DNA of 64,000 nt, taken from the IMG/VR virus record IMGVR_UViG_3300008267_000013, positions 23,793 to 87,792 of that record; one strand, given 5' to 3'. The notes below the pieces were generated by a model that saw only the letters and a list, made by a program, of their open reading frames with translations, did no database searches and was not told where the DNA came from. Shown here piece by piece: positions 24,469 to 41,483 of this stretch; positions within the stretch are counted from its first letter, which is position 1; each line of letters opens with the position of its first letter. The translations under genes and the position numbers were made by a program. This DNA is from a virus.

Positions 24469-25065
24469 ATGTCCTTGATTTCTGAAGAACAGCTAAAAAA
24501 GATTTTTAAAAATTGCAAAGACGATAAAATTAAATTTTATTGTGATGCTTTCAATAAAGTATTTCCAATATATGAAATTAATACACCAAACCGTATTGCT
24601 GGTTTCCTTGGACAAGTTGCTGTTGAATCAGGTGAACTTAAATACGACGTAGAACTTCCATCTAAATGGAACAAAAAGAACCCTAAAGATCCTAAGGAGC
24701 CAATTGGTACGCTATATGAGGGCCGCGCCAACCTAGGCAATAAAACGCTTGGTGATGGCCCTAAGTTTATTGGCAGAGGTATATTACAGTTAACTGGTAG
24801 AGCAAACTACGAAACAATGTCTAAAAAACTAGGTTTAGATCTAGTTAATAGTCCAGAATTGGCAGCAACACCAGAAGTCTCTACTAAGATTGCATGCCAA
24901 TACTTCAAAGATAGGGGTTTATTATCTCTATGCGATGTATGGAACCTGGATGAAGTGACACGCCGCGTCAACGGTAATGCCAAGCTTCACCTAAAAGAAA
25001 GGATAGAATATTCAGAGCGGGCATTAAAAGTGTTAAAGGATAAGAAGGAGTATGCGAACTGTTAA
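24469..25065 (+). CDS. GH19 chitinase/lysozyme-type endolysin
   Basis: 198 aa, single catalytic domain. FLGQVAVESGEL holds the first catalytic Glu, YEGRANLGN the second, and FIGRGILQLTGRANY the conserved substrate cleft segment of GH19 endolysins, which cut the glycan chain of peptidoglycan. No signal peptide, so release would need a holin. The ribosome site GGAGG sits in the loop of a small AGCAG/CTGCT hairpin just before the ATG. Confidence 0.88.
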   Translation: MSLISEEQLKKIFKNCKDDKIKFYCDAFNKVFPIYEINTPNRIAGFLGQVAVESGELKYDVELPSKWNKKNPKDPKEPIGTLYEGRANLGNKTLGDGPKFIGRGILQLTGRANYETMSKKLGLDLVNSPELAATPEVSTKIACQYFKDRGLLSLCDVWNLDEVTRRVNGNAKLHLKERIEYSERALKVLKDKKEYANC

Positions 25066-26309: not shown

Positions 26310-26541
26310 TAAACAATATTTTTGTTTTACAAACTATACATATGATAAAGAATTTTATGTTATGACCACAAATGCTTCCGAGACAGGTGAATGGGAAACA
26401 TGCGTATTTTGTAACGACCCAGTCACAGGTGTCAGGGACTTTGAAAGTTTGGTTGAGCAAATAAGATTCAATTCACAAGATGAAGCAAAACAAATGCATT
26501 CTGATGTTCTTTACAAGTGGAATACACTTGGAGTAGTTTAA
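26296..26541 (+). CDS. Hypothetical protein, paralog of 27546
   Basis: 81 aa. FYVMTTNASETGEWETCVF matches YYVSTSSSQQNWETKVF of the protein at 27546. The ATG at 26296 overlaps the upstream end. Function unknown. Confidence 0.5.
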   Translation: MELTDKQYFCFTNYTYDKEFYVMTTNASETGEWETCVFCNDPVTGVRDFESLVEQIRFNSQDEAKQMHSDVLYKWNTLGVV

Positions 26542-26542
26542 A

Positions 26543-26866
26543 AATATAAATGGTAGTTGGCTTAATGGTAGCCATCTTTAATCAGTGAGACAAAATCCCG
26601 AGGCGTATGCTAGCAATCCAAATACTGGACAGAATGCGAAAGCCCCGAAAAATACTTCTTACGAACCCCGATAGAGTAAGAGGTTATTGTAACAACGGTG
26701 TTGTACGTTTAGTAGGGTAACTGTGGCTAGCTGAGAGGAGGCCCGGGTTGGGGAATGGGACAAATGGACTGACTGAACTAACCACTTCGTTTTAATTAAC
26801 AGGTGGAGCCGATAAAAAGGCCGATACAAGTCCATCTCTTAGGTGTAACAACAGGCCATTTATATT
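26543..26866 (+). ncRNA. Unassigned structured RNA of about 320 nt
   Basis: No long open frame. The ends pair in a perfect 11-bp helix: AATATAAATGG (26543-26553) with CCATTTATATT (26856-26866). Inside are a GGC/GCC hairpin (26559-26573), a CTTCTTAC/GTAAGAGG stem and an ATGGACT/AGTCCAT stem. An intrinsic terminator follows at once. It does not fit tmRNA, RNase P RNA, 6S RNA or a group I intron as far as can be judged by eye. A weak promoter may lie in the end of the preceding gene. Confidence 0.6.
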
Positions 26867-26896
26867 GCCCTCCTCGTAAGGGGAGGGTTTTTTATT
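26867..26896 (+). terminator. Intrinsic terminator of the structured RNA
   Basis: CCCTCC / GGAGGG stem with TTTTTTATT tail. Confidence 0.88.
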
Positions 26897-26902
26897 GGTA
26901 GC

Positions 26903-26931
26903 TTGACTTGATATAGACTACCATGTAGAAT
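26903..26931 (+). promoter_or_regulatory. Promoter giving a leaderless transcript
   Basis: TTGACT (26903), 17-bp spacer, TAGAAT (26926-26931). The ATG at 26939 is 8 bases after the -10, at the expected transcription start. Confidence 0.8.
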
Positions 26932-26938
26932 GTACCCT

Positions 26939-27559
26939 ATGGAAAACAACATCGTTAACGATCCACAAATTAATGATCGACTCCAGCAGCTTCTACAGAA
27001 ACCATTAACTCCCAAGCATTTAAATGTAATAAAATCATTTAGTGATTTCTGGAGTAAGTATCAATATTTAACTATCAAGCAAGTTTCTTTTCTGGACAAT
27101 ATAGAATCAAGTTATAATGATGACTATAACTCTTGGAGAGCAAACTTCGGAGATGATAAAAAAGAACTACTAAAGATGGCGGTTAACTATTACCAAAATA
27201 GTCAGTATTTTATGGAGATTGTAAATAATTATTACATGGACAAAAATTACATTCCAACTCGTAGACAATACGAAAGAATGTGTGAGAATAAGTATGTAAA
27301 GCGAGCCATAGGATATTACAAGTCTAATCCATTATATGAATTGGGCGACATAATTACTCCTAGAGCTCGTTATCTTTATAAAATAAGCGATACTTTAACC
27401 GTAGGTATAATCAATAAAATTGGTGAACCTTCGTTTCTAAACGGAACCAGATTGTACGATGTAATGTGGTTAGGCGGAACAAAATTTTCTAAAATGTTTG
27501 AGAGAGAAATAAAAATTTACAGACACCCCAAAAAGGAGAAGAAAGATGGCACAACGTAA
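26939..27559 (+). CDS. Two-domain protein: helical N-terminus plus GDI/SH3-like C-terminus
   Basis: 206 aa. The ATG at 26939 is chosen because the ATG at 26930 lies in the -10 box. Residues 1-130 are helical (LTPKHLNVIKSFSDFW...). From about residue 133 LYELGDIITPR begins a longer form of the GDI domain, ending VMWLGG...EIKIY. It heads the GDI gene array and may show the ancestral domain arrangement; the same layout recurs at 43199-44098. Confidence 0.6.
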   Translation: MENNIVNDPQINDRLQQLLQKPLTPKHLNVIKSFSDFWSKYQYLTIKQVSFLDNIESSYNDDYNSWRANFGDDKKELLKMAVNYYQNSQYFMEIVNNYYMDKNYIPTRRQYERMCENKYVKRAIGYYKSNPLYELGDIITPRARYLYKISDTLTVGIINKIGEPSFLNGTRLYDVMWLGGTKFSKMFEREIKIYRHPKKEKKDGTT

Positions 27560-27791
27560 CATTACAGAAGATGGCAAATACTATGTTTCAACTTCTAGTT
27601 CTCAGCAAAACTGGGAGACCAAGGTGTTTATGATTGATAAGGATGGCAAGATGCTCTTTGATGTTGCTCTTGAGGAAAAGAATTATTCCAACGAACACGA
27701 GGCTGATGTTGGTCACAAGAAGGTTCTTGCAAAATGGTGTGGCAGAATCGACGCCGAGGAAGAGTTGGGTATAGGGGAAGGCGGTTATTGA
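27546..27791 (+). CDS. Hypothetical protein, paralog of 26296
   Basis: 81 aa. Shares the YYVSTSSSQQNWETKVF segment with the protein at 26296. AGGAG lies upstream; overlaps its neighbours at both ends. Confidence 0.5.
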   Translation: MAQRNITEDGKYYVSTSSSQQNWETKVFMIDKDGKMLFDVALEEKNYSNEHEADVGHKKVLAKWCGRIDAEEELGIGEGGY

Positions 27792-27973
27792 TTTTGTTTG
27801 TTCCCGGTGATATTGTAGAGAAAAAATATAAACCATTTCGTCTTATAAGGCACTTTATGGTTGTCGAAGGTGAACATCCTTATTATAACTGTTATGATAT
27901 TGATAGTGAAAACTTCGTAAAAAATATCCTTCTTTCTAATACATTGTTGTGGAAAGTTGAAAAATTAGCCTAG
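27788..27973 (+). CDS. GDI-family member 1
   Basis: 61 aa from a TTG in a TTGA over the preceding stop; an ATG further upstream would lie inside the previous gene. FVPGDIVEKKY, then HFMVVEG, ending EKLA. Confidence 0.55.
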   Translation: MILFVPGDIVEKKYKPFRLIRHFMVVEGEHPYYNCYDIDSENFVKNILLSNTLLWKVEKLA

Positions 27974-27982
27974 GTTTATAAT

Positions 27983-28210
27983 ATGTATAATACAGGTGAT
28001 ATTCTAGAAAGAATTATAATAAGTAACATAGATAGAATGAATCCTATATTTAGAGATGACAATATACATTTCTTGATAGTTGATAAAAGAGAATATTTTC
28101 TAGAAGTATCTGGCAAGTGTGCAGTTATTTACACACTTATGTCACTAAAGACCAATCAACATCACACAATCAGTTTGAGAGATACACGTAATTGGAAAAA
28201 AGTAGCATAA
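27983..28210 (+). CDS. GDI-family member 2
   Basis: 75 aa. MYNTGDILERI, HFLIVDK, YTLMSLK, ending NWKKVA: all landmarks of the family. Confidence 0.65.
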   Translation: MYNTGDILERIIISNIDRMNPIFRDDNIHFLIVDKREYFLEVSGKCAVIYTLMSLKTNQHHTISLRDTRNWKKVA

Positions 28211-28226
28211 TAGGTGACACCATGAG

Positions 28227-28436
28227 ATGGAGCAGGAAGAAAAGATAAACGGAGTTGGCGATATAATAGTAGAATGTTATATGAATAGCGTTCGCGGCGA
28301 GCAACATTATATTATAATAGATCAAAACTATTATCAATATGAATTACTGCCACTAAATGCAGCCAATAAAGATTATCAATCATCGTTCCTGTTATTAAAA
28401 AGTACGGTTGTCATGTATTATATAAGAGTCGCTTAA
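28227..28436 (+). CDS. GDI-family member 3
   Basis: 69 aa. GVGDIIVECY, HYIIIDQ, ending YYIRVA. Followed by a TAATG junction. Confidence 0.6.
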   Translation: MEQEEKINGVGDIIVECYMNSVRGEQHYIIIDQNYYQYELLPLNAANKDYQSSFLLLKSTVVMYYIRVA

Positions 28437-28825
28437 TGAGATATAACATAGGAGATGTTATAGAAGCAGATTATGTATCGCATAAGCAAATATATTACAT
28501 TAAAGATATAATAGCAGATGAATACATACTAAGAACAATAGATGGTGATTTACAAAGAGATCTTCATTGTCTGCTAACAAATGTTAGCAATATAACGTAC
28601 AAAAAGGTTGATATGTCGCTTACTAAAGATATGATGATATCAGTAGATTCAGAAATTCAATATTATAGCAACCAAGAACTAATTACTTATAATATATCAT
28701 ATACTGAATTAAACAATAAATATCCTAATTCTTATTTTAAATACAGAGTAGATCGTAGTACAGAAGAGCTATTAACCAGAGGATTAGAACCATCTGATGC
28801 CAGTAAAAGCAGAGGTGATAGTTAA
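28436..28825 (+). CDS. GDI-family member 4 with C-terminal extension
   Basis: 129 aa. YNIGDVIEADY, IYYIKDI, ITYKKVD close the usual domain near residue 60; about 70 more residues follow that match no other member. The extension overlaps the next gene. Confidence 0.55.
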   Translation: MRYNIGDVIEADYVSHKQIYYIKDIIADEYILRTIDGDLQRDLHCLLTNVSNITYKKVDMSLTKDMMISVDSEIQYYSNQELITYNISYTELNNKYPNSYFKYRVDRSTEELLTRGLEPSDASKSRGDS

Positions 28826-29000
28826 TGTAGGTGATATTATTAAAGTAAAGAGTGCTGAAACAGAATTCAGTGGCCTCTACCTAGTATTAGAAATAAAATC
28901 AACTCAAGGAATAAAAATATATAATCTGCAGGATCTAAGATTCCCAGACACATTCTGGACTTTTTTTAGCGATGATGATATATTGGAAATACTGGCGTAA
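28797..29000 (+). CDS. GDI-family member 5
   Basis: 67 aa. NVGDIIKVKS, LYLVLEI, IYNLQDL, ending EILA. The start may instead be a GTG near 28816. Confidence 0.55.
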   Translation: MPVKAEVIVNVGDIIKVKSAETEFSGLYLVLEIKSTQGIKIYNLQDLRFPDTFWTFFSDDDILEILA

Positions 29001-29003
29001 AAA

Positions 29004-29240
29004 ATGATGCCTTCACACGATAGATTAAGAGAAGTAAGATACGATGTGGGCGATCTTGTCAAACGTTATAATATGCTTGACTCGGATAAAGAGGCCACAT
29101 CATGCGTATATTTAATACTAGCTGTAAATATCGATGAAGAAGGTTGGGTCTGGTACTACTGCTACAGTTTCGGATCAGGTACATATCGTGAATTTTTGAT
29201 GGATGATAATTCCGCTCGTAAATATGTTAAATTAGCGTAG
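29004..29240 (+). CDS. GDI-family member 6
   Basis: 78 aa. YDVGDLVKRYN, VYLILAV, YYCYSFGSG, ending YVKLA. Confidence 0.6.
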   Translation: MMPSHDRLREVRYDVGDLVKRYNMLDSDKEATSCVYLILAVNIDEEGWVWYYCYSFGSGTYREFLMDDNSARKYVKLA

Positions 29241-29252
29241 AAAAGAGGACAT

Positions 29253-29468
29253 ATGCGTAAATTTAAAGATGGTGATAAGGTATCTGTTAAATCGTGTGAA
29301 GAATTAGAGATGCCATGCAGCGTTGAGGGTCTTGATGATTGGATTCCAAAATTAACCTCTTTGGATGGTCGTACTATTTATATGTATAAAGTAACTGGTC
29401 GTCACGCAAAGCGCGGTAATGCAGTATCGGTTCGCGTATCAGAAAGTCAATTAGAACTTTGGAGTTAA
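29253..29468 (+). CDS. GD-motif protein, divergent array member (7)
   Basis: 71 aa. FKDGDKVSVKS and a beta-rich body ending QLELWS. It lacks the KVA end and the YxLI strand, so it is either a distant member or an unrelated SH3-like protein. AGAGGA ribosome site present. Confidence 0.5.
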   Translation: MRKFKDGDKVSVKSCEELEMPCSVEGLDDWIPKLTSLDGRTIYMYKVTGRHAKRGNAVSVRVSESQLELWS

Positions 29469-29469
29469 T

Positions 29470-29655
29470 ATGAAAAGTTTTGAGTTGGGTGATATTGTAC
29501 ATGATTTTGAATATGACCAATATTATCTAATCACACACATTAAACAATCAGATACATATAAGTACCTGTATTCATTGATGGATTTAGAAGATTCATCAAG
29601 AGTTATAGGGGCATCACTAGCAAATCTTAAAAAATTATACAAGAAGGTAGCATAA
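29470..29655 (+). CDS. GDI-family member 8
   Basis: 61 aa. FELGDIVHDF, YYLITHI, LYSLMDLE, ending YKKVA. Confidence 0.65.
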   Translation: MKSFELGDIVHDFEYDQYYLITHIKQSDTYKYLYSLMDLEDSSRVIGASLANLKKLYKKVA

Positions 29656-29656
29656 A

Positions 29657-29812
29657 ATGAGCTCCGAAAGATGGATAAGATTGATATTATCATCCATAGT
29701 TGGAGCAACTGCTTATGTAATTATAGCAGTTATATACACGCATTATAAAACTCACGATAAATATACGGTCTATAATAAGTCGCCGCTAACAATAGGGCCG
29801 TATAAAAAATGA
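29657..29812 (+). CDS. 51-aa membrane protein within the array
   Basis: Starts one base after the previous stop; membrane helix about residues 7-27 (RLILSSIVGATAYVIIAVIY), basic tail. ATGA overlap with the next GDI gene. No family recognised. Confidence 0.5.
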   Translation: MSSERWIRLILSSIVGATAYVIIAVIYTHYKTHDKYTVYNKSPLTIGPYKK

Positions 29813-30030
29813 GCAACGAGCGAATATTTAAGCCGGGGGATATAATAAAGTATATACCAGACAAAGATAGCAAGATAAAAGAAGCCTTTGAACAGGAACT
29901 ATATATAGTTATATCAGCTGGTCCTTATATATTTGAAGAGGGTTTCCAAATGGTTGAAAAAATGCATCTGATATCTGGTGTTATACAGATGCGTCCCATA
30001 ATGATTAATAGATGGGAAATATTGGCTTGA
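29809..30030 (+). CDS. GDI-family member 9
   Basis: 73 aa. FKPGDIIKYIP, LYIVISAG, ending WEILA. Confidence 0.6.
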   Translation: MSNERIFKPGDIIKYIPDKDSKIKEAFEQELYIVISAGPYIFEEGFQMVEKMHLISGVIQMRPIMINRWEILA

Positions 30031-30203
30031 AGTTTAGAGTAGGTGATATAATAAGAGCAATCAATAAATCAACTGGTATATATGTTCACTTCCTAATTTA
30101 TAGGATTGAAAAGTGGCACTATGTAGCTTACTGTATTGAAGATGGTATGCCAAGCGTATCAATCAGTCCAATATACGATAATGATTTTGAAAAGGTTGCT
30201 TAG
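30027..30203 (+). CDS. GDI-family member 10
   Basis: 58 aa from a TTG overlapping the previous TGA, or from the ATG at 30012. FRVGDIIRAIN, HFLIYRI, YCIEDG, ending FEKVA. The last codons carry the -35 (TTGCTT) of the promoter for 30255. Confidence 0.55.
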   Translation: MKFRVGDIIRAINKSTGIYVHFLIYRIEKWHYVAYCIEDGMPSVSISPIYDNDFEKVA

Positions 30204-30254
30204 ATCAGTAAGTTGTGCTATAGTATTTAAACTAACTAACTCAAGGAGGAAAAT

Positions 30255-30479
30255 ATGAGCAAAGTTAGCATCGTACTAAGTATTGCCGTTGGATTGTGGT
30301 CAGCGACTGCTCTTGGAGTCGGTACCGCATGGTTGTTCAGTAGAACTAGACCAGTACAAGTTGTAAGACTCGACAATAACTGTGTAACTGTTCAGCAGGG
30401 TATGTTTCACCGACTAGAATGTTATAACAGCAATGTTCCACCTCATGATCCCGTGGAACAGATTGGTTATGCAGAGTAA
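30255..30479 (+). CDS. Small exported or membrane-anchored protein
   Basis: 74 aa with a hydrophobic N-terminus (residues about 4-28) after a single Lys and no clear cleavage site. Promoter TTGCTT-17-TATAGT just upstream and GGAGG at the start; an intrinsic terminator follows, so it is a unit of its own inside the array. Confidence 0.55.
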   Translation: MSKVSIVLSIAVGLWSATALGVGTAWLFSRTRPVQVVRLDNNCVTVQQGMFHRLECYNSNVPPHDPVEQIGYAE

Positions 30480-30504
30480 TAATAAATAGATATAGCCAAT
30501 TCAG

Positions 30505-30535
30505 CGGCTGGTGTGTGAACACCAGCCGTTTTTAT
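30505..30535 (+). terminator. Intrinsic terminator
   Basis: CGGCTGGTGT / ACACCAGCCG stem with TTTTTA tail. Confidence 0.92.
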
Positions 30536-30542
30536 TATCTGC

Positions 30543-30571
30543 TTGACAACAAACATACGTTGACCTATACT
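30543..30571 (+). promoter_or_regulatory. Consensus promoter, near-leaderless start
   Basis: TTGACA (30543), 17-bp spacer, TATACT (30566-30571); ATG 9 bases later at 30581. Confidence 0.85.
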
Positions 30572-30580
30572 ATCAACACG

Positions 30581-30808
30581 ATGGATACACCACAGGTTGG
30601 CGACATATGGAAGAACAACTGGTCAAGTAACCTCAACACACATAATTGCGGCGAAACTCACTACCTATTGATAAAGAAGGTAGAGCCCGACAACTCCAAG
30701 GATACAAAGTGGGTAGCATTTTCTTATAAGAGATATAAGGAAGTACTCATCTATATTGATAACTATTCAAATGAGATAGTTACAAATAGTTTCACAAGGG
30801 TATCTTGA
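30581..30808 (+). CDS. GDI-family member 11
   Basis: 75 aa. PQVGDIWKNNW, HYLLIKK, ending FTRVS. The ATG at 30581 fits the promoter; an earlier ATG would lie upstream of it. Confidence 0.65.
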   Translation: MDTPQVGDIWKNNWSSNLNTHNCGETHYLLIKKVEPDNSKDTKWVAFSYKRYKEVLIYIDNYSNEIVTNSFTRVS

Positions 30809-30809
30809 T

Positions 30810-30992
30810 ATGCTATCATCAACTATAGAACCTGGTGACATCTGGAAGAATGATAACTCACAATTCCATAATATCATTATTGAACCCGACATCGTAAACC
30901 CTTGGTGGATTACATGGGTTATTGAATTGGGCGAATATAATCTCTATCATAAAGATGATTTTGATATGCGTTGGTGGAGGAAAGTAGCATGA
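30810..30992 (+). CDS. GDI-family member 12
   Basis: 60 aa. IEPGDIWKND, NIIIEPD, WVIELGE, ending WWRKVA. Confidence 0.65.
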   Translation: MLSSTIEPGDIWKNDNSQFHNIIIEPDIVNPWWITWVIELGEYNLYHKDDFDMRWWRKVA

Positions 30993-31192
30993 GTAGCAGA
31001 GACGCAAAGTGGGATGTTGGCGATATTATCAGAGAAGAATGGGGTGACGAATCAAGGCATTTCCTAATAATGAGTGTATGTTTGTGGGAAACAAGTATTG
31101 ATACTTATGAGTGTCGTGTTTTAGAGACAGGACAAACCATGAACATAACTCCACATTATAGTCCACCAAACATGTTGAGAAAAGTCGCATGA
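30989..31192 (+). CDS. GDI-family member 13
   Basis: 67 aa, ATGA start. WDVGDIIREEW, HFLIMSV, YECRVLETG, ending LRKVA. Confidence 0.65.
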   Translation: MSSRDAKWDVGDIIREEWGDESRHFLIMSVCLWETSIDTYECRVLETGQTMNITPHYSPPNMLRKVA

Positions 31193-31413
31193 GGACTCTT
31201 AAATTCAGCATCGGAGATATCATAACACGCGGCAAGCCACACCATGATATGTTCAAAGATAATTGGCGTAAGTTCTATCTTATACATGATATAATCTATG
31301 AAGAAGAGCAAAAAGAATATAGATATTGTTTATACAGTTTCCAAACAGGTTCTTGGAGCGGCTATTTCCCAGCAGGTGAACTTGTAGAACCTTTTCTATT
31401 CAAGGTAGCCTAA
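31189..31413 (+). CDS. GDI-family member 14
   Basis: 74 aa, ATGA start. FSIGDIITRGK, FYLIHDI, YCLYSFQTG, ending LFKVA; TAATG end. Confidence 0.65.
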   Translation: MRTLKFSIGDIITRGKPHHDMFKDNWRKFYLIHDIIYEEEQKEYRYCLYSFQTGSWSGYFPAGELVEPFLFKVA

Positions 31414-31592
31414 TGAATCCACAAGTTGGTGACATATGGAAGATAGGAGATCACTATCATTATCTTGTCTTAGAAGAGAGACTTGACTACTGGGGGGAGA
31501 AGCAGTATTATATGTACATCCTTGAGAGAGACATGTACGACTGCCTCTCATTAGATTTAATAGAGTGATGGAATGGTACAAAAGTGGTGTAA
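31413..31592 (+). pseudogene. GDI-family member 15 with an in-frame TGA
   Basis: The frame MNPQVGDIWK...HYLVLEER...YMYILERD stops at TGA 31566-31568 (51 aa). Reading on gives W-N-G-T-K-V-V and a TAA at 31590-31592, exactly where the next gene begins. KVV matches the family ending, so the TGA is probably a recent Trp-to-stop change, or less likely is read through. Confidence 0.6.
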
Positions 31593-31802
31593 ATGTCTAA
31601 ACCTCATCAAGTTGGTGATGTTGTCATGGTTGAAAATGACTGGATTGCTTATGAGAATGGTAGTTTGGTTTACGAAACAGGACAAAATCATTATCTTATA
31701 CTTGAACGCTGCGATTATACCTGTACCTATACAACGATTCATCTGCAAAGCGGCAAGCATATCCTTACAAGTATGTTAGATAACGCAACAAAGGTCGCCT
31801 AA
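31593..31802 (+). CDS. GDI-family member 16
   Basis: 69 aa. HQVGDVVMVEN, HYLILER, TTIHLQSGK, ending ATKVA. Starts directly after the TAA of member 15. Confidence 0.65.
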   Translation: MSKPHQVGDVVMVENDWIAYENGSLVYETGQNHYLILERCDYTCTYTTIHLQSGKHILTSMLDNATKVA

Positions 31803-32038
31803 TGGAACTCAAGAATATCCTACTTCTCGATAAAAACAAGAAAGTGTATTATACACATTATGAAGTTGGAGATATTCTTAGACACGAAGCAGAAATTAGT
31901 GCTCATTATCTGGTAGAAGATATACGCGTAGAAGATAATCTTGGAGTTTACTCGCTTAGAGTTCTTGAAAATAACGATATCTTTTCATGGGACGTAGAAA
32001 TAGTAGATAAAGCCCGCAAAATCAAGAGGGTCGCATGA
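31802..32038 (+). CDS. GDI-family member 17
   Basis: 78 aa with a 20-residue N-terminal lead, then YEVGDILRHE, HYLVEDI, YSLRVLEN, ending IKRVA. Confidence 0.65.
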   Translation: MELKNILLLDKNKKVYYTHYEVGDILRHEAEISAHYLVEDIRVEDNLGVYSLRVLENNDIFSWDVEIVDKARKIKRVA

Positions 32039-32235
32039 TGGAACACCAATACGAGCCCGGTGATATTCTTGCAGTTGATGAACCTTGGTCCAATGAAACA
32101 TTTTATTACTTGATAGAGGGTGAGCTTGATTCTGTTCATGCGTACATGGAATTAATGTATCCTTACCGCTGTCTAAGTGATGGCAAGACAGGATGGGGTA
32201 AATTCAATGCGCCTTCAACAAGGAAAGTCGCATGA
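32035..32235 (+). CDS. GDI-family member 18
   Basis: 66 aa, ATGATG start over the previous stop. YEPGDILAVDE, FYYLIEG, YRCLSDGK, ending TRKVA. Confidence 0.65.
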   Translation: MMEHQYEPGDILAVDEPWSNETFYYLIEGELDSVHAYMELMYPYRCLSDGKTGWGKFNAPSTRKVA

Positions 32236-32417
32236 TGAATATGTTCCAAATAGGTGATATAGTAAAATGTACAACTACTAACATGATAGAACACATGCTC
32301 ATACTTGACACACAACCAGACTACTGGTATATTGTCCTGTGTCTAGAATCCGGCTTTACAAAAACACATAAGATGTGGCCGAATCAAATCCCAAGAGTAT
32401 ATATGAAGGTCGCATGA
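32232..32417 (+). CDS. GDI-family member 19
   Basis: 61 aa. FQIGDIVKCTT, HMLILDT, YIVLCLESG, ending YMKVA. Confidence 0.65.
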   Translation: MMNMFQIGDIVKCTTTNMIEHMLILDTQPDYWYIVLCLESGFTKTHKMWPNQIPRVYMKVA

Positions 32418-32620
32418 TGTTTAAAACCAAGTATCAGATTGGCGACATTATCGAGGGTAGTCACATACCTGGCGCAAAAATACACCTGCTAATTGAAAAC
32501 ATTACCTATATGGGCAAGAAGCCATTTGAGTATTGTGTACGGAATCTTGAAGAAGATTTGATATATGAAAAGTCAGTAGAAAGAACCGATAAAAGTCTTT
32601 ATTACAACAAGGTTGGCTAG
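32414..32620 (+). CDS. GDI-family member 20
   Basis: 68 aa, ATGA start at 32414. YQIGDIIEGSH, HLLIENI, YCVRNLEED, ending YNKVG. Close to member 23 (YQIGDIIRVEV...YCVRDLES). Confidence 0.65.
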   Translation: MMFKTKYQIGDIIEGSHIPGAKIHLLIENITYMGKKPFEYCVRNLEEDLIYEKSVERTDKSLYYNKVG

Positions 32621-32621
32621 C

Positions 32622-32650
32622 TTGACAACCCTAACCTCTTGCGCTACTAT
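32622..32650 (+). promoter_or_regulatory. Promoter, leaderless start
   Basis: TTGACA (32622), 17-bp spacer, TACTAT (32645-32650), then ACAACC and the ATG at 32657, the expected transcription start. Confidence 0.8.
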
Positions 32651-32656
32651 ACAACC

Positions 32657-32881
32657 ATGACGCCACGATACGAACCCGGCGATATCCTTCACCATTCAGG
32701 TATGGAAGGTATTGAGTTTTATTGTTTGGTGATGGACGTTGAGACCGTATCAAACTGTATTATAAACGGTAACTACGAACATCGTAGAATTTATACTCTT
32801 CTTTGTATGGATGACGGAGAAGTGTATAGATTCAATACAGCAAACATTGATTGTAGTGTTTATTATAGGAAGGTTGCGTAG
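32657..32881 (+). CDS. GDI-family member 21
   Basis: 74 aa. YEPGDILHHSG, FYCLVMDVE, YTLLCMDDGE, NIDCSVYYRKVA. Nearly duplicated, together with its promoter, as member 22. Confidence 0.7.
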   Translation: MTPRYEPGDILHHSGMEGIEFYCLVMDVETVSNCIINGNYEHRRIYTLLCMDDGEVYRFNTANIDCSVYYRKVA

Positions 32882-32882
32882 C

Positions 32883-32911
32883 TTGACAACCATCACTTCT
32901 TGAGGCACTAT
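32883..32911 (+). promoter_or_regulatory. Promoter, leaderless start (duplicate)
   Basis: TTGACA (32883), 17-bp spacer, CACTAT (32906-32911), ACAACC, ATG at 32918; copy of the promoter at 32622. Confidence 0.78.
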
Positions 32912-32917
32912 ACAACC

Positions 32918-33142
32918 ATGAAGCCCCGATACGAACCCGGTGACATCCTTTATCATCAAGGCAGCGGCTTTGGTGAATTTTATTGTTTAGTTATGGATAT
33001 CGAACACAAGACAAGACCAGATCCAAGAGGTAGAAAGTGGCCTTTTGATGTCTACGTTCTTCTTGGTATGGATGACGGCGAGACTTATACAATAAGTACT
33101 CAAAATATTGACTGTAGTGTATACTATAAAAAGGTTGCATGA
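32918..33142 (+). CDS. GDI-family member 22
   Basis: 74 aa. YEPGDILYHQG, FYCLVMDIE, VLLGMDDGE, NIDCSVYYKKVA. Differs from member 21 mainly between the two beta strands in the middle. Confidence 0.7.
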   Translation: MKPRYEPGDILYHQGSGFGEFYCLVMDIEHKTRPDPRGRKWPFDVYVLLGMDDGETYTISTQNIDCSVYYKKVA

Positions 33143-33345
33143 CAAAGTATCAGATAGGCGATATCATCCGTGTTGAAGTTTCTCACAGAGAAGAACCACT
33201 CATCTTCTTGATTGAAGATATTATAAATGAAAATCGGCGCGATGCCGCCCTATATTGTGTTAGAGATTTAGAATCAAACGAGACAAAGAAAGTGTTTAGC
33301 AACACCCTAGATAAACGCGATCTAACCGTTTGGAAGGTGACCTAA
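33139..33345 (+). CDS. GDI-family member 23
   Basis: 68 aa. YQIGDIIRVEV, IFLIEDI, YCVRDLES, ending VWKVT. ATGA start, TAATG end. Confidence 0.65.
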   Translation: MTKYQIGDIIRVEVSHREEPLIFLIEDIINENRRDAALYCVRDLESNETKKVFSNTLDKRDLTVWKVT

Positions 33346-33539
33346 TGGAACCTCAAACTGGGGACATATGGGAATACAATTTCGACACACCAGATTATCA
33401 CTTAACATATAACCTGTTGGTGCTAGGGAGCGGCATCATGTTCAGCAATTATTATCTGTGTCTTATACTAGAAACAGGTAGCATACAAGAGGCAAGTTTC
33501 ATGCCAACACCCAAAGAAACATACGAGAAGGTTGCATGA
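33345..33539 (+). CDS. GDI-family member 24
   Basis: 64 aa. PQTGDIWEYNF, YNLLVLG, YLCLILETG, ending YEKVA. Last gene before the convergent non-coding region. Confidence 0.65.
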   Translation: MEPQTGDIWEYNFDTPDYHLTYNLLVLGSGIMFSNYYLCLILETGSIQEASFMPTPKETYEKVA

Positions 33540-34436
33540 TTTAAAAAACGAATAGGTAGAAGAAGTAGGAGGACGGGGGGGTCACAAAACCAAAGAAGGT
33601 ACTATTTATATATAGAAAACAAAGATAGGTTCCATGCTGAGAAGACGCACGGTGATCACCACAAAAGAAAAGGTGATCCACAGCCAAGCGGACGCATGGA
33701 CTGTGTCCATCTTCAAAGTGCAAACGAACCAGTTGATGGACGCCGGAAGCAGGATCTGAACCCTGAACCGGCTAAAAAGAGAATGAAAAACCCCACAGTC
33801 CACAGGGCGTGGAACCCCTGATAGTTTTCAAGAGGCGGCAATCACCAGGGACAAAAGATTGCTGACCACTTGGTTGGACAGATCAACTGGGGGTTTTGTT
33901 ATTAAACTAAAAGCTGGTTAGGCCCATGGTGCTGATGATGGAGCCGCAAACTAACAAACAAAAAAAGATCCAGCCACCAGTAGAGGTAGGAGGACCAGTC
34001 CCAGTCATAGAAGTAGAAGATCCTGGAGAGAGGTGAGGTATAGCACTACAAGTAGAGTAGGATAAGCACTAGTGCCAGTAGAGGTAGGAGTATACCAGGA
34101 GGGGAGGGAGTAGAGGGGAAACAAATAGATCCCATACCCACCCATCCATAAGGTAGAGGGAGTAGGGGGAGGGGTATGACTAGGTAAAGTTCTATAGCAA
34201 ACCCAGTATAATAAAAAGTGGACGAGATGGACCGGCGAAGCGGTCCTGCTCTCCCAGTTGAGGAAGAGGAAAGAATCAGATGCTAGTAAATAAGCATACT
34301 GCCCTTATACAATAGGTTGTGGTAATTGAAAAAAAGGTATACAATTGCTTATTATAAGTTATTATCTACTGGTTAAATGTGGCAATTGGTGTCAAAGCGG
34401 GGCAAGAAGTGGCATCGAGTGCCAACACAGCTTTAG

Positions 34437-34620
34437 CCCTTATTTTATAGGGTTTTCGAACAAGCCCATCCGGAAACCCCTTATTTTAAGCTAGATTGTG
34501 ATAAATTTTATTTTTATAACATGGATCCCCTATAGATTAAGACATAATAGAATAGCCCCTTCACCATTAAGCCTAAAATAAGGCAAAACGTGATTTCACA
34601 AAATGCCTTAAAATAAGGCA
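34437..34620. repeat. Four copies of CTTATTTTA in two orientations
   Basis: CCCTTATTTTA (34437), CCCTTATTTTAAG (34478), then CCTAAAATAAGG (34572) and CCTTAAAATAAGG (34606). The last two form small palindromes. Iteron-like, function unknown. Confidence 0.55.
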
Positions 34621-34814
34621 CTTCCGAATATTAGACGTATATGTTGAATATATGATAAATATATATTATATGCGGCACCCCTACTCTAATAAATTTAGTA
34701 TACCACCGATGTTGGCAGGTGTCCAGTAGCGTCTATTCAATAGATATGGAAAAAGGGTAAAGGGTGGGGGCTAGCCGGGTCAGTAGTCCTTTTTTTTGTT
34801 AGATAGGGCAGGAA

Positions 34815-34876
34815 GAAAAAAGGATATAGCAGGGGCCTAGCCCCCTCCGCTCCCCCCTTTATTAACAGGGGAGGGA
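34815..34876 (-). terminator. Double-hairpin cassette 1
   Basis: On the minus strand: CCCTCCCC...GGGGGGAG hairpin, then GGGGGCTAGGCCCC and a U run. Lies just after the stop of the AAA+ gene. A partial copy (GGGGGCTAGCC) lies at 34765. Confidence 0.7.
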
Positions 34877-34893
34877 AGGCTTGACTCGCGGTG

Positions 34894-35955
34894 CTACTCC
34901 TTCTTCTTGACACCCGCCAGCATGGAGGTGATGAACGGCTTGACACCCTCCTGCTTGTGGAACTTGAGAACAAACGGAAGCAGTCCCTTGCTGCTGTTCA
35001 TGTTGGTGTAGAACTTCATAGCTGCCTCAGAGGGCAGGGAGAGGAAGTACTTGCGGAGGTTTTCCATATGGTCAGCCTCCATACTGTCACCCAGCTTGCC
35101 GCTGTCGATGATCTTGTCAACCATCGCAACGTGATCGTTCAGCTTCCAGCCCTTCGTCTTTGCCTTGCCCTCCAGAATATCCTCAACCGTCACCTGAGAC
35201 TCATACTTATCGGCAAAGTCTCGGAAAGAAACAGCCGCCTCGAAACCAACGAAACCCGTGGAGATATTGAAAACAGTTGAAAGGTTACGCTTGAAATCAC
35301 CCTCCATCAGCTTGCCAGCCTCAATTGTGCGGCTCAATCGCTCCCAGCTACGACGGGAGGGATAAACCTTGCCCGGTTCAAACTCCTTTGTATGCTCAAG
35401 GTGCGCCTTATTGTGTCGGATAAAATCAACAAGGATGGGGTTGCAGCGATCCTTTGCATAATCAATCCAATCCTCAACAGACGGCTCAACATCAAAAACA
35501 GTCCAGCGGTCCAGTTCGGCAGGGTCCATATCGTTGACCTGATACTGAGCAGCGTGGATTCCACCGTTGACAGCAGCAAACAGCAGGGTATCGGGATGCA
35601 GCCTGTGACCATTAAGCTGTCGGCTGTCCGCAAGCTGGAAGAAGCCCTGCCGCACCTCAGTTGTCGCACGGTCAATCTCGTCCATGAACAGGACAACAGC
35701 CTCGCTGCACGCACGCTTGTACCAATCGGGGGGATTCCAAGCGGTCGAATCGCCGTCAATAACAGGCAAGCCAACAAGATCGCCCTCGCTCATCTGCGAG
35801 GCTCGACGTTCCACTACCGGCAAACCCTTCTTCTCGGCAAACTGGTACACCAGTTCACTCTTGCCGACACCGTGACGACCCCGGATCATAACAGGGTAAC
35901 GGCTATCAGCGATCATGTGGACAAAAGAATTAAACGTCTTGAAATCAACAGCCAT
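34894..35955 (-). CDS. MoxR-type AAA+ ATPase
   Basis: 353 aa. Walker A GRHGVGKSE (residues about 26-34), Walker B VVLFMDEID (about 87-95), sensor-like FAAVNGG and an Arg-rich segment after it (AELDRWTVFDVEP), as in MoxR/AAA_5 proteins. These ATPases usually act with VWA-domain partners to remodel protein complexes. The gene downstream of a VWA protein gene on the same strand (36175-37347) makes such a pair. Promoter TTGACA-17-TATTGT on the minus strand near 36090. Confidence 0.82.
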   Translation of the reverse strand: MAVDFKTFNSFVHMIADSRYPVMIRGRHGVGKSELVYQFAEKKGLPVVERRASQMSEGDLVGLPVIDGDSTAWNPPDWYKRACSEAVVLFMDEIDRATTEVRQGFFQLADSRQLNGHRLHPDTLLFAAVNGGIHAAQYQVNDMDPAELDRWTVFDVEPSVEDWIDYAKDRCNPILVDFIRHNKAHLEHTKEFEPGKVYPSRRSWERLSRTIEAGKLMEGDFKRNLSTVFNISTGFVGFEAAVSFRDFADKYESQVTVEDILEGKAKTKGWKLNDHVAMVDKIIDSGKLGDSMEADHMENLRKYFLSLPSEAAMKFYTNMNSSKGLLPFVLKFHKQEGVKPFITSMLAGVKKKE

Positions 35956-36105
35956 TGTCGGACCTCGTTGACGGCTCCATGCCGTCCATGTGGGAGAAGT
36001 TACAACGTGCAGATGGGGTTGTCAAGCAGTTGGTGGGTGGTGCATCAGCCGCGAACAGGTACACAATATTGCATGGGGGGGTTGGTGTCAAGTTGAGCGA
36101 TCATA

Positions 36106-36170
36106 TAAAAAGGGATGGGCTGCGGGGCTAGCCCCCCTTCAAGCACCTTTTATCGGTGCCATCGGGGGTA
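36106..36170 (-). terminator. Double-hairpin cassette 2
   Basis: Minus strand: GGCACCGATAAAAGGTGC hairpin, GGGGCTAGCCCC hairpin, then CCCTTTTTATA. Follows the stop of the VWA gene. Confidence 0.75.
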
Positions 36171-36174
36171 CACT

Positions 36175-37347
36175 TTAACCCTTCTTGCTATTCTTCACTT
36201 CAACAACAATCTCGTTTGTCTGGAAGTATGGACTCTCCTTACCGGCACGGTCAGTCATCCACATACGTCGGACACGGCAAGGAACAGGCGCAGGAGCCTG
36301 CATATCGGTTAAAACAATAAGCCCATCAATTTCGGGGTGCTTGTTGACCCACTTGGTTGGTGCATCGAAGTCGGTGCCGCCGCACATAACACGCTCAGTC
36401 CTGTGCTTCTGTCCTTTCTTCCATTCATACACCAGCTTATCGCCTACCTCAGTATCAAAAGGTACAACGGTGAAAGTTACCAGCTTCGACAGACCATTCA
36501 ATTCAGCAAAGAACATGGAAAGCATCTCGTCGCTAACAGAACCGCTCTGGTCAATAGCAATTGCAATATGTGCAGAATGGTTTGTCTTGCGACCGGGATG
36601 GATATATGGGAACCGCTTGTTGATACGCTTGATTGTGTTGGAACGATTCGCCCGCTGTGCGTTGCCAATAAAGTTGCGGAGGATTGCACGCCAATCAACC
36701 GATCCGTTGACGAATTGCAGGATCGCCCGCTTAACGTCCTCGTGCATATTGCCGAATCCACGGCTAGACTTGGAGGCTTCCTCGACGCCCTTCTTCATAG
36801 CCTCACGCAGACGCTCCCGTGCAATAGCCTTGCTGTCACCGTTCGCCTCGTTCTCTCCCCATCCATCGTGATCGTCAAAGGAATCCTGACCATCACCAAA
36901 GTTGGGATCATTCTCTGCCTTCTCCTCCAACAGCTTCATATATTGTTCAGCCGAGAGGTAATCATCGAAACCAAACTTGGACGGGAAAACACCAAACTCT
37001 GGAATCTCGTCCTTGATATGGCAGTTGATCGACATATCAGTTGCCATGTTCCACATACGGCTCACTTGCTTGCCATCAGGGTTGCGGCTCAATACGTGTT
37101 CAAAGATCAAGTGGTAGAACTCATGCTTGAGAACACCCGTTCGCTGCTTGTCGGGCAATCCATCAAAGAACGCTTGGTTGTATGCCATATCAAAGAAGCC
37201 GTCATCGGTGATACGAACACCAGCAGTAGGAATATTATTGTTAGGGTGCTTGTTGACAGACCGGCTCATAGCAGCAAAGAATGGCTCCTCACGCAGAAGC
37301 CGGAAAACATCATGCTCAAGGTTGTAGTCGCTCAAGGTTGTCTCCAT
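36175..37347 (-). CDS. VWA-like metallopeptidase-type protein (DUF2201-like)
   Basis: 390 aa. HEFYH at residues 75-79 is an HExxH zinc site; D266-Q-S-G-S270 is the MIDAS motif of a von Willebrand A domain (AIDQSGSVS). This order fits the DUF2201 family, usually encoded beside MoxR ATPases. The pair probably forms a remodelling chaperone; its target is unknown. Codon use is richer in GC than in the plus-strand genes. Confidence 0.8.
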   Translation of the reverse strand: METTLSDYNLEHDVFRLLREEPFFAAMSRSVNKHPNNNIPTAGVRITDDGFFDMAYNQAFFDGLPDKQRTGVLKHEFYHLIFEHVLSRNPDGKQVSRMWNMATDMSINCHIKDEIPEFGVFPSKFGFDDYLSAEQYMKLLEEKAENDPNFGDGQDSFDDHDGWGENEANGDSKAIARERLREAMKKGVEEASKSSRGFGNMHEDVKRAILQFVNGSVDWRAILRNFIGNAQRANRSNTIKRINKRFPYIHPGRKTNHSAHIAIAIDQSGSVSDEMLSMFFAELNGLSKLVTFTVVPFDTEVGDKLVYEWKKGQKHRTERVMCGGTDFDAPTKWVNKHPEIDGLIVLTDMQAPAPVPCRVRRMWMTDRAGKESPYFQTNEIVVEVKNSKKG

Positions 37348-37411
37348 GCCGCTCTGTGCGGCGTCCAGTCAATCTATGGCAAGCATCGGCACTTGTCAAG
37401 CTGGGCTGGTG

Positions 37412-37475
37412 GAAAAAAGATGGGTCAGAGGGGGCTGGTCCCCCTTCACCACCGTTTATTGGTGGCTCGGGGCGG
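37412..37475 (-). terminator. Double-hairpin cassette 3
   Basis: Minus strand: CCACCAATAAACGGTGG hairpin, GGGGGACCAGCCCCC hairpin, then TTTTTT. After the stop of the gene at 37479. Confidence 0.8.
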
Positions 37476-37478
37476 CAG

Positions 37479-38108
37479 CTAGGCGATGGGCTTCCAACCG
37501 TAGACCTTTTTGTCGAGCCGATCATGGCCTTGGAAGTCTCGGAGAACTCTACCCATATCGGGCTGTCCATCGTTTGAGGGTGATAACAGCTTTGGGGGGT
37601 GGTCCCAACTATAGAGCGGACGGCTGTAGTCCTTTAGAGTGGGATGGAGCAGGCTGCGATCAAGGGTTGTGATGCAGATTGGTGCGGTGATGTTACGGCT
37701 CATATCATGGAGCGGCATAACGTTGATGTTGATATGAGCAACGTGTTGGTAGCGGATCAAATCATCACAACCATTGGGAGTTTCGGGATAGTACCCACTA
37801 GCAGACTTTAAGATGGTACGAACAGTTTTCTTGTACTTTACATTACGGTACTCAAGGTAGTTACCAAAATAGCCGTGTACGCACTCATTGGGATCAGAGA
37901 TGATGCAGTTAACATAATCGCCAGCATGATAATCATATGCTTCAATGATGGCACCTGATCCATATCCGCTGGCAATCAGGAGCTGCACTTGACGCAACCG
38001 CTCGCCTCCAACATGACGCCTAACAGCTTCAATCTGTGACAGGCGAACTCGGCAGACAGACTGGTTGTGATTGTACTCGCGGCAGTATCCACATTGACGA
38101 TCACCCAT
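37479..38108 (-). CDS. CCHC zinc-knuckle protein
   Basis: 209 aa. CGYCREYNHNQSVC at residues 7-20 is an exact C-x2-C-x4-H-x4-C knuckle, a nucleic-acid-binding motif. The remainder is unrecognised. GGAGG precedes the ATG. Last gene of a five-gene minus-strand operon that starts at 39015. Confidence 0.65.
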   Translation of the reverse strand: MGDRQCGYCREYNHNQSVCRVRLSQIEAVRRHVGGERLRQVQLLIASGYGSGAIIEAYDYHAGDYVNCIISDPNECVHGYFGNYLEYRNVKYKKTVRTILKSASGYYPETPNGCDDLIRYQHVAHININVMPLHDMSRNITAPICITTLDRSLLHPTLKDYSRPLYSWDHPPKLLSPSNDGQPDMGRVLRDFQGHDRLDKKVYGWKPIA

Positions 38109-38118
38109 GATTGGCCTC

Positions 38119-38310
38119 CTAAGCAGCTATATAGAACGGATTGTCGGGTAGGTCAAGTCCAAAAGGGCTTGTGTAGGTTGAATACGTCCCATCGTTCAAT
38201 ACATAGATATGTAGCTGGTGGACATCGTTTGGATATACCTTATCCTCATAGATTAACCAGTATGTCCCATCATGCTTTCTACATAGGATATCACCAACTT
38301 GGACCATCAT
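38119..38310 (-). CDS. GDI-family protein (minus-strand cluster)
   Basis: 63 aa. VQVGDILCRKH, YWLIYED, IYVLNDG, ending FYIAA. Shares the core of the tandem array but lies 5 kb away on the other strand. Confidence 0.6.
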   Translation of the reverse strand: MMVQVGDILCRKHDGTYWLIYEDKVYPNDVHQLHIYVLNDGTYSTYTSPFGLDLPDNPFYIAA

Positions 38311-38642
38311 GCCTTGCCCTTGTGGTTAGCTACACCAGAAAAGGTTGCCACAGTTTCGAACTTGATACCAGTTTCCTTGGCACGATATGCCAATTGACAG
38401 TTCTTACCTGTATTCAGGCCGCTATTAGCCGCCCAATAACGGAGGTAGTCTTTTCTATCATCCTGTGATTGGAACCGCAAGATCTGGACTTGGGCCTGCT
38501 TACCCTCTCCAGAAGAGATACCAGCATAACGAACAGTAGACTCCTCAGAACAAATTTCACAATGGGTGGAGAGGCCACCAGCACGACGCTTGGCAGGCGA
38601 ACGATGATCAAACTGTTCGCCGCACACTTGACAGGTTCTCAT
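38307..38642 (-). CDS. Zinc-finger protein
   Basis: 111 aa. CQVCGEQFDHRSPAKRR and HCEICSEE give a probable C-x2-C...C-x2-C site; basic residues around it suggest nucleic-acid binding. The ATG at 38642 overlaps the previous stop (ATGA). Confidence 0.55.
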   Translation of the reverse strand: MRTCQVCGEQFDHRSPAKRRAGGLSTHCEICSEESTVRYAGISSGEGKQAQVQILRFQSQDDRKDYLRYWAANSGLNTGKNCQLAYRAKETGIKFETVATFSGVANHKGKA

Positions 38643-38830
38643 GCTAACTTCCTCCACTTAATTCTTTCAAACTGATTATCCAAGTCCATGAACCAATCCC
38701 CAACCTCACCATCTTCAAGTTTCAAGCACAGATGGTAATCGAGATCATCGATATAGTCAAGCACAAGCAGGGTGGCAGTTCCATACTGGGGATAACTATA
38801 TTCCCAGATGTCACCAATGTTGACAGTCAT
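38639..38830 (-). CDS. GDI-family protein (minus-strand cluster)
   Basis: 63 aa. VNIGDIWEYSY, TLLVLDY, YHLCLKLEDGE, ending WRKLA. Very like array member 24 in the first strand (TGDIWEYNF). Confidence 0.65.
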   Translation of the reverse strand: MTVNIGDIWEYSYPQYGTATLLVLDYIDDLDYHLCLKLEDGEVGDWFMDLDNQFERIKWRKLA

Positions 38831-39015
38831 GCCAGCACCTTAAACTCTGCCATGCCAAACTGGTATCTAACGTTTCTACCATTAGTCAGCGAGATAGTAT
38901 CGTAAATATATCCATCTACATCCTTATCAAGCCTGACAATAAGAAAAATATTATCGTCTCTATCCCAATCGTACTGGACAATATCCCCGACATGGCACAG
39001 CGGTTCGTTGCTCAT
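38827..39015 (-). CDS. GDI-family protein (minus-strand cluster)
   Basis: 62 aa. CHVGDIVQYDW, IFLIVRL, YDTISLTNG, ending FKVLA. First gene of the operon; promoter at 39022-39050. Confidence 0.65.
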   Translation of the reverse strand: MSNEPLCHVGDIVQYDWDRDDNIFLIVRLDKDVDGYIYDTISLTNGRNVRYQFGMAEFKVLA

Positions 39016-39021
39016 GAGAGA

Positions 39022-39050
39022 AACCTACAGCGGGGCAGTTGGGTTGTCAA
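39022..39050 (-). promoter_or_regulatory. Promoter of the 39015-37479 operon
   Basis: Minus strand TTGACA (39050-39045), 17-bp spacer, TAGGTT (39027-39022). The ATG is 6 bases further, so transcripts would be nearly leaderless. Confidence 0.7.
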
Positions 39051-39063
39051 GCGGCAGAAAACG

Positions 39064-39112
39064 ATAAAAGGGTAGGAGAGGGGGACTAGCCCCTCTCGTA
39101 GCGGGTATTTCT
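39064..39112 (-). terminator. Double-hairpin cassette 4
   Basis: Minus strand: ACCCGCTACGAGAGGGGCTAGTCCCCCTCTC then CCTTTTAT. Ends the tRNA operon just after tRNA-Thr. Confidence 0.7.
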
Positions 39113-39115
39113 AGA

Positions 39116-39190
39116 TGGTGCTTTCGGGAAGAGTTGCACTTCCATCACGAACTTTACAAGAGTTGTATTTTGCTATTAAACTACGAAAGC
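39116..39190 (-). tRNA. tRNA-Thr (anticodon TGT)
   Basis: 75 nt on the minus strand with encoded CCA. Acceptor GCTTTCG/CGAAAGC, anticodon loop CTTGTAA, T-stem GGAAG/CTTCC. The T-loop TGCAACT lacks the usual T at position 55, and the anticodon stem has one mismatch. Confidence 0.8.
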
Positions 39191-39262
39191 TAGGAGTAAT
39201 AAGCACTAATTACATTATATAGTATACCACAAATAGAATAGTATTTAAATGTTTTTTGTTGT

Positions 39263-39334
39263 TGGAGGCCCGTGAGCGAGTTGAACGCTCTTAGCAGATT
39301 TAGAAGATCCGCCGCTGAATCCGTCAGACGGGCC
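39263..39334 (-). tRNA. tRNA-Arg (anticodon TCT)
   Basis: 72 nt on the minus strand with CCA. Acceptor GGCCCGT/ACGGGCC, anticodon arm CGGAT-CTTCTAA-ATCTG, T-arm GAGCG-TTCAACT-CGCTC. The D-arm is short and irregular. It lies 5 bp from the stop of the HNH gene. Confidence 0.75.
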
Positions 39335-39339
39335 ATAAA

Positions 39340-39855: not shown

Positions 39856-39924
39856 AATTACCTCCTATTAGCCCCTCTACCATAATTAGTTAGTTGTGGC
39901 GGAAAAGGCTAACAGGAGGTGTCA

Positions 39925-40221: not shown

Positions 40222-40257
40222 TTAATCTTAGTTACTAATTTTCAAAGAAGTACTCAG

Positions 40258-40549: not shown

Positions 40550-40582
40550 ACTCAGTACTTCTCTTTCAACCTTACAAGAGGC

Positions 40583-41463: not shown

Positions 41464-41483
41464 ATGCGCCTCCCTATCCACCC

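Follow-up and report, generated by a model that had tools for sequence, protein, structure and literature searches.

In the 64,000-nucleotide stretch analysed here (the window; bases 23793-87792 of the 87,792-base environmental virus record IMGVR_UViG_3300008267_000013, labelled G000 among the compared records), positions 27734-33539 of the plus strand carry a tandem array of closely packed, paralogous genes for small proteins of one family, mostly 50-80 residues long. An iterated profile was built over 78 related loci and the window, with a threshold of E 1e-3 and reversed sequences as decoys. It recovered all 28 candidate open reading frames (ORFs) of the family in the window at E 4.2e-4 or better, 24 of them on the plus strand and four on the minus strand, and there were zero matches to the reversed decoys up to E 0.1.

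Array members and their fold

In order to assess membership we also performed a leave-one-out profile test, in which the 28 candidates were compared with the 237 other ORFs of the window and with 40 shuffles per member. At least 15.8 bits were obtained for 25 of the 28 candidates, while the best other window ORF in any test scored 5.6, and 24 candidates outscored all shuffles in their own test; the top shuffle score across all tests was 18.9. The member at 28227 does not exceed its own shuffles (15.8 versus 15.9 bits), and those at 28436 (6.0), 29809 (9.8) and 29253 (-0.5) fall below theirs. One later round of the iterated profile keeps 27 of the 28 and loses 29253-29468. Because this gene drops out there and has a 61% identical partner in a relative (L008, 8785-9015) outside the family set, we treat it as a neighbour, probably a conserved single-copy-like gene. 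Setting it aside leaves 23 plus-strand and four minus-strand members, 27 in total. A reading made from the sequence alone (hereafter the sequence-only reading) had proposed about 23 adjacent plus-strand genes, which the ORF positions and both profile tests bear out. Its four minus-strand members (38119, 38639, 38827 and 42063) were recovered by the iterated profile, and its claim of strong expansion and divergence is supported.

The first member lies in the ORF 27734-27973 and probably starts at the TTG at 27788 (27788-27973), the Arg-rich upstream part being likely untranslated. It is followed by members at 27983-28210 (KVA end), 28227-28436 (RVA end, the borderline case above), 28436-28825 (a weak member whose C-terminus runs on further past KKV), 28797-29000 (ILA end) and 29004-29240 (KLA end). 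Beyond the probable neighbour gene are 29470-29655 (KVA end), 29809-30030 (a divergent member with an ILA end and E 2.5e-06 in the iterated profile) and 30012-30203 (KVA end). Two small ORFs inside the array, 29657-29812 and 30255-30479, both on the plus strand and membrane-segment-like by eye, are non-members by the profile tests. A terminator-like hairpin (30503-30530, plus strand) splits the array at this point. The second part comprises 30581-30808 (GDIW type, RVS end), 30810-30992 (GDIW, KVA end), 30989-31192 (KVA end, overlapping the preceding gene by 4 bases), 31189-31413 (KVA end), 31413-31568 (GDIW), 31593-31802 (KVA end), 31802-32038 (RVA end), 32035-32235 (KVA end), 32232-32417, 32417-32620 (KVG end), the duplicated pair 32657-32881 and 32918-33142, 33139-33345 (KVT end) and the last plus-strand member, 33345-33539 (GDIW), whose KVA end has no directly following gene. 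Likely gene starts are those at 30581, 30989, 32417, 32657, 32918 and 33345. The minus-strand members are 38119-38310, 38639-38830 (GDIW), 38827-39015 and 42063-42275.

One member, 32232-32417, was modelled with 60 family sequences and gave a five-stranded barrel with a predicted local distance difference test score (pLDDT) of 94.2 and a predicted template modelling score (pTM) of 0.78. For the minus-strand W-type member 38639-38830 the alignment comprised 31 sequences and differed in part from the first, and the model has the same strand order (pLDDT 94.3, pTM 0.78); the two are 23-30% identical across the two alignments. At model level for these two divergent members, the predicted family fold is a five-stranded SH3/Tudor-like barrel, which agrees with the SH3-type barrel of the sequence-only reading, and unrelated folds were not seen. 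In the profile of 105 members from five phages (described below) the conserved positions are G (103/105), D (103/105), L (91/105) and Y (74/102), that is, the GD turn and core-type positions only; positions 9-17 and 25-28 carry only about 0.2-0.6 bits, and the C-terminal part is poorly covered in that profile. The nearest solved structures are Tudor, KOW, NusG C-terminal, PWWP with single-stranded DNA, UvrD Tudor and SH3 domains (Foldseek E 0.016 or worse, Z 7.3 at most), and there are structure matches to many uncharacterised phage proteins (E 0.025 or worse). Such a barrel is a common shape and tells no function.

Scans with Pfam, NCBIfam, PADLOC and PDB sequences (those of Pfam and PADLOC covering 25 members) returned only isolated weak matches and no convincing family; in the profile searches, a check that the sequence-only reading had proposed, no characterised family of fixed function came up. 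KOW and NusG profiles are absent among the 11 Pfam families matched at E up to 0.5, and KOW domains appear in the structure listings as weak matches among many generic barrels. MazF/PemK toxins were considered because of the GDIW start; MazF, PemK and CcdB are absent among the same 11 families. No match was found among 50,697 phage records by megablast of 26500-43500 or tblastn of two members. The VIA-align structure listing contained no particular phage inhibitor family, which excludes nothing, and no published description of such an array was found in the PMC literature, subscription papers being outside its coverage.

Four weaker relatives (17954, 22324, 23971 and 24189) and two longer proteins carrying the array domain (26939 and 43199) had also been proposed. 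The iterated array profile recovers none of the six; some of the leave-one-out tests give 9.2 bits to 22324 and 9.8 bits to 24189. In profile-profile comparisons all six match a set of MKVGDLV-type proteins, chosen by a regular expression for GD, with 67-95% probability, and the array family matches this GD-selected set with 90% probability over 41 columns. Against the array profile, 22324, 23971 and 24189 obtain 63-89% (24189 over 13 columns only), and eight single-sequence controls, scored against the array profile alone, obtain 0.1-0.7%. For 26939 and 43199 the probabilities are 67% and 85% with the MKVGDLV set but only 27% and 26% with the array profile, and it is weakly supported that they may carry the array domain. 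A run of MKVGDLV-type small genes was also seen in another record, G074 (L236, 1673-6394, minus strand).

Gene borders, promoter-like sites and neighbouring elements

Counting 29253 and the two non-member ORFs, there are 25 plus-strand junctions: 11 genes overlap the next by 1 or 4 bases and two by more, and the remainder are six gaps of 1-12 bases and six longer ones. The final codons are often AAGGTNGC or AGGAAAGTNGC, resembling a ribosome-binding sequence for the following ATG; ahead of the stop the sequence is rich in purines (AAGG- or AGGAAAG-like), immediately before the next ATG. The terminal Lys codon is AAG in 11 of 17 cases versus 211 of 548 elsewhere (p 0.04). A terminal Ala is present in 73 of the 105 members versus 14 of 152 control ORFs, where the controls are unfiltered ORFs of 100 amino acids or more, some of them spurious, and the members are related, so that the Fisher value overstates independence. 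All four Ala codons are used, GCA being the commonest (45/73). Terminal Ala is found in 28 of 31 members with an ATGA overlap, 20 of 28 with TAATG and 25 of 46 with no overlapping next gene, and it is uneven by phage (26/28 in G045, 22/28 in G000, 6/15 in G007).

The idea of KVA as a pure protein signal is weakened by the purine-rich end codons and the AAG bias noted above, and because Ala rises with overlap. We read the KVA end as serving both the last strand and translational coupling, partly as a ribosome-binding sequence for the next gene. This explanation covers part of the terminal-Ala excess, without requiring Ala. A very improbable extension would make the array a binder library with a shared handle, in which the variable barrel surface would pick host proteins and the hydrophobic-Ala end, being ssrA-like, would deliver the target to a host or phage Clp protease. 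Variants of ssrA ending in LVA are mentioned in PMC9382460, and this phage has two different ClpP-like genes, at 12875-13594 and 57160-57756 (Pfam CLP_protease, 2.7e-29 and 7.5e-31).

The border in G074 is a conserved DNA sequence: 11 of 13 pattern-picked gene ends read GAA-NNT-NGG-TGA and overlap the next start, and two of these 11 belong to unrelated genes. A DNA border shared in this way, unrelated genes included, fits recombination at gene borders. The 'SESR'-like ends in G074 are an out-of-frame reading of the following gene's start.

Sites matching the consensus TTGACA-17-TANNNT stop 6-9 bases short of the ATG at 30581 (30543-30571, TATACT as second hexamer, 9 bases before), at 32657 (32622-32650, TACTAT, 6 bases before) and at 42275 on the minus strand (6 bases before), and a site with TTGACT precedes 26939, in the stretch 26903-26939. 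The hairpin at 30503-30530 precedes the first of these. A copy at 32883-32911 with a weak second hexamer (TTGACA-17-CACTAT) was seen by eye and is absent from the scans. The mention of promoters in the sequence-only reading is thus matched by promoter-like sites, as consensus matches; in that scan, sites at many other spacings were listed as well. Near the array there are 45 promoter-like sites compared to a shuffle mean of 32.0 (standard deviation 5.1), a modest excess, and 15 terminator-like sites compared to a mean of 4.7 (standard deviation 2.1), a larger excess. The spacing suggests that transcripts from these candidate promoters would start at or near the ATG, giving leaderless or near-leaderless mRNAs.

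Elsewhere in the window, an intergenic repeat of 51 bases, 61-71% alike, occurs at 36086, 42305, 44465 and 45998; by eye it joins a GC-rich hairpin with a TTGACA on the minus strand, which would make it a recurring combination of terminator and promoter within the GC-richer part (about 34-51 kb). Two minus-strand group I intron matches (Rfam RF00028), 39997-40198 and 40315-40524, lie 116 bases apart with scores of 51.4 bits (cut-off 50) and 34.7 bits (below cut-off), and have a common 29-base repeat at 97%. A gene for an HNH_3 protein (39340-39855) is near these matches and near minus-strand members.

Recurrence and probable turnover in related phages

The array has a gene for a glycoside hydrolase family 19 (GH19) lysozyme (24469-25065, plus strand; Glyco_hydro_19) as its left neighbour and a convergent gene for a MoxR-type ATPase (34894-35955, minus strand; Pfam AAA_5) on its right, with a DUF2201 metallopeptidase/VWA-like protein beside the ATPase (36175-37347, minus strand). 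The ATPase gene has relatives at 72 loci and the lysozyme at 6. A search with the array alignment gave a match at E 0.01 in 9 of 45 records, with many matches only in G000 (26), G005 (13) and G007 (13). With a wider alignment, 23 of 36 records had at least one match; two of these 36, G004 and G005, had been searched before. Two further phages, G045 (24 matches) and G051 (17 matches, with the wider alignment), came to light through a scan with two gene-border DNA patterns (76 and 36 stretches), and among the border-pattern stretches family matches were found only in L133 (G005), in L140, L197 and L219 (G045), and in L203 and L215. Counted with one iterated profile, the distinct members number 28 in G000 (29253 included), 28 in G045, 20 in G051 (from a partial stretch), 15 in G007 and 14 in G005, or 105 in total.

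The array follows the lysozyme gene in all five of these phages and runs into the convergent ATPase gene in G000, G005, G007 and G045; the G051 record ends before the ATPase. No array follows the lysozyme in the four other relatives viewed (L002, L005, L004 and L007), whose records may be fragments, and a gene that is ClpP-like by eye follows there. Two of the six lysozyme records, G001 and G002, each have one match to the array profile elsewhere. Larger ORFs were seen inside or at the end of arrays (L008 5817-6764, L234 5662-6573 and L238 18231-19790), which are possibly involved in array change; for the first two, which are endonuclease-like by eye, Pfam gave no match at 0.001.

Between G000 and G007 the lysozyme, the ATPase and the DUF2201 protein are 73%, 77% and 69% identical, and between G000 and G005 64%, 64% and 58%. 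Small neighbours also have clear partners in L008: 24189 (59%), 25635 (70%), 26109 (65%) and 29253. When the family members were searched with BLASTP at 1e-4 in G007 and G005, 6 of the 27 (29253 left out) had a match, four of them to one same protein. The 28 proteins of G000 have one reciprocal best hit with the 15 of G007, one with the 14 of G005 (31413-31568, at 50%), three with the 26 of G045 and none with the 20 of G051; between relatives there are four for G005 and G045 (14 and 26 proteins) and none for G007 and G045 (15 and 26). For other ORFs, taken as those of 60 amino acids or more, many of them spurious, the 44 of G000 give 10 reciprocal best hits with G007 (20 ORFs), 8 with G005 (54), 9 with G045 (26) and 4 with G051 (44), and there are 7 for G005 and G045 (54 and 26) and 5 for G007 and G045 (20 and 26). 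From these sequence comparisons, array membership probably turns over between related phages.

On a tree of the 105 members, clustering by phage requires 50 changes compared to a mean of 61.9 for shuffled labels, a value as low being found in none of 200 shuffles. The clustering comes through G045, G051 and G007, and one branch of eight rows, seven of them from G045, has a support of 98 in the Shimodaira-Hasegawa-like approximate likelihood ratio test (SH-aLRT). This pattern suggests that old paralogs are mixed with the products of lineage-specific expansion.

The observations that bear on tandem copying by recombination are one clear duplicated unit in the window and the repeated borders in G074. 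The unit is one gene length: 32657 and 32918 are spaced by 261 bases and have 77-78% DNA identity over 143 and 81 bases, and their proteins are 60% identical. The sequence-only reading had described recent block duplication, with promoters, of members 20-23. A unit with a promoter-like copy is indeed present, but for 32417 and 33139 the sharing is limited to a 27-base start. By the Nei-Gojobori method (NG86) the pair has 0.38 nonsynonymous (dN) and 1.20 synonymous (dS) substitutions per site; with dS of about 1.2 the duplication is not very recent.

Proposed role, rival explanations and known systems

A conserved small scaffold, a free surface, a high copy number and a changing membership at a fixed locus fit a set of binders directed against hosts. 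The array would probably grow, shrink and swap members by recombination between repeated gene borders. The barrels would be small binding proteins whose unconserved surface attaches to a variety of host (or phage) partners, the binding would most likely block host functions or defences, and each phage would carry the set that its recent hosts selected. The sequence-only reading had conjectured that the members may be inhibitors, adaptors or antigen-like variants. We tentatively propose, at somewhat less than even confidence, that they serve host takeover or counter-defence as a turnover-prone repertoire of binders. The 14-28 divergent copies at one locus, in sets that differ between relatives, provide a natural comparable series for asking what the barrel binds and whether phages keep whole sets of small binders instead of lone inhibitors.

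Several observations weigh against turnover and a counter-host role. Other neighbours are poorly conserved too (37479, 31% and 25%; 22324, 38%; 43199, 34%), and proteins of 60 residues reduce the power of BLAST. Only with G007 do the family and the other ORFs contrast clearly in reciprocal best hits; for the pair G005 and G045 the family comes out ahead of the other ORFs. The median identity of partners is alike, 36-50% for the family versus 42-53% for the others in the three G000 pairs with family partners. Most of the tree is open (53 columns; 80 of 102 inner branches), and the members of G000 and G005 are not clustered on it. The pair 32657/32918, the only one in the window close enough to measure, has dN/dS of about 0.31; positive selection is not seen in it, and by this estimate it is under purifying or relaxed selection. 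For none of the members was a match to a known counter-defence protein found, the library used being PADLOC, which lists defence genes and not inhibitors (best match 0.0029, 1 of 25 members). Because the reciprocal-hit contrast is uneven, our confidence in turnover and in the counter-host role is slightly reduced.

The same changes in copy number and membership between related phages could also arise if the array were a by-product of recombination, in which short repeats at the borders cause a dispensable barrel gene to be duplicated again and again, while most of the copies decay without any diversified function. The borders repeated as DNA in G074 and the member 28436, which lacks a normal end, are in line with this. 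We nevertheless consider it doubtful, given the highly conserved fold-core positions across the 105 members, the dN/dS of about 0.3 in the duplicated pair and the large arrays kept in five phages. The KOW, NusG C-terminal, PWWP and UvrD Tudor folds among the nearest solved structures would suit members that bind nucleic acid or RNA polymerase as regulators of transcription or translation, each copy being tuned to another site; all of these matches are weak and generic for small barrels. The members are also mostly acidic (median isoelectric point 5.2, mean charge -2.9; 20 of 28 negative, four neutral and four positive), which speaks against a plain nucleic-acid binder, and such regulators seem to us unlikely. 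As for the idea of DNA mimics, the mean charge is negative, yet it is not shared by the neutral and positive members. Some phage barrels are virion parts, and the array adjoins an endolysin gene, as might be expected if the members were variants or building blocks of a single structural or assembly component. The identified neighbours (lysozyme, AAA_5 ATPase and DUF2201 protein) are not virion parts, however, and the possibly fragmentary records of the four relatives viewed have no array at this locus; we regard this explanation as extremely improbable.

The array can be compared to known systems. The best PHROG matches are of no known function: phrog_7591, with a best value of 2.2e-06 (for member 29470-29655), is reached by 3 of the 25 members at E up to 0.05, and a PHROG named primase is matched by one member at 0.049. 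The resemblance to phrog_7591, 26123, 26175 and 1945 consists of weak profile matches over the barrel, and each of the four is reached by no more than 1-3 of the 25 members at E 0.05. In the Viral AlphaFold Database (PMC12487901), SH3/Tudor-like barrels form some of the largest structural clusters that are confined to phages. These clusters share the fold class and are also of small phage proteins; the passage that describes them, unlike the present case, makes no mention of tandem arrays. A precedent for phage amplification of a counter-defence gene is given by tifA of T4 (PMC9391042), and SegB-driven amplification is a second phage precedent (PMC13096335). As these reports describe it, T4-like phages amplify counter-defence loci, which shows that multiplying genes for such a purpose is within the reach of phages. 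The likeness would be that phage genes are multiplied by recombination, and here the HNH_3 gene lies near minus-strand members. The difference is that the tifA and SegB copies are reported to arise in laboratory evolution, whereas the copies of the array are old and highly divergent.

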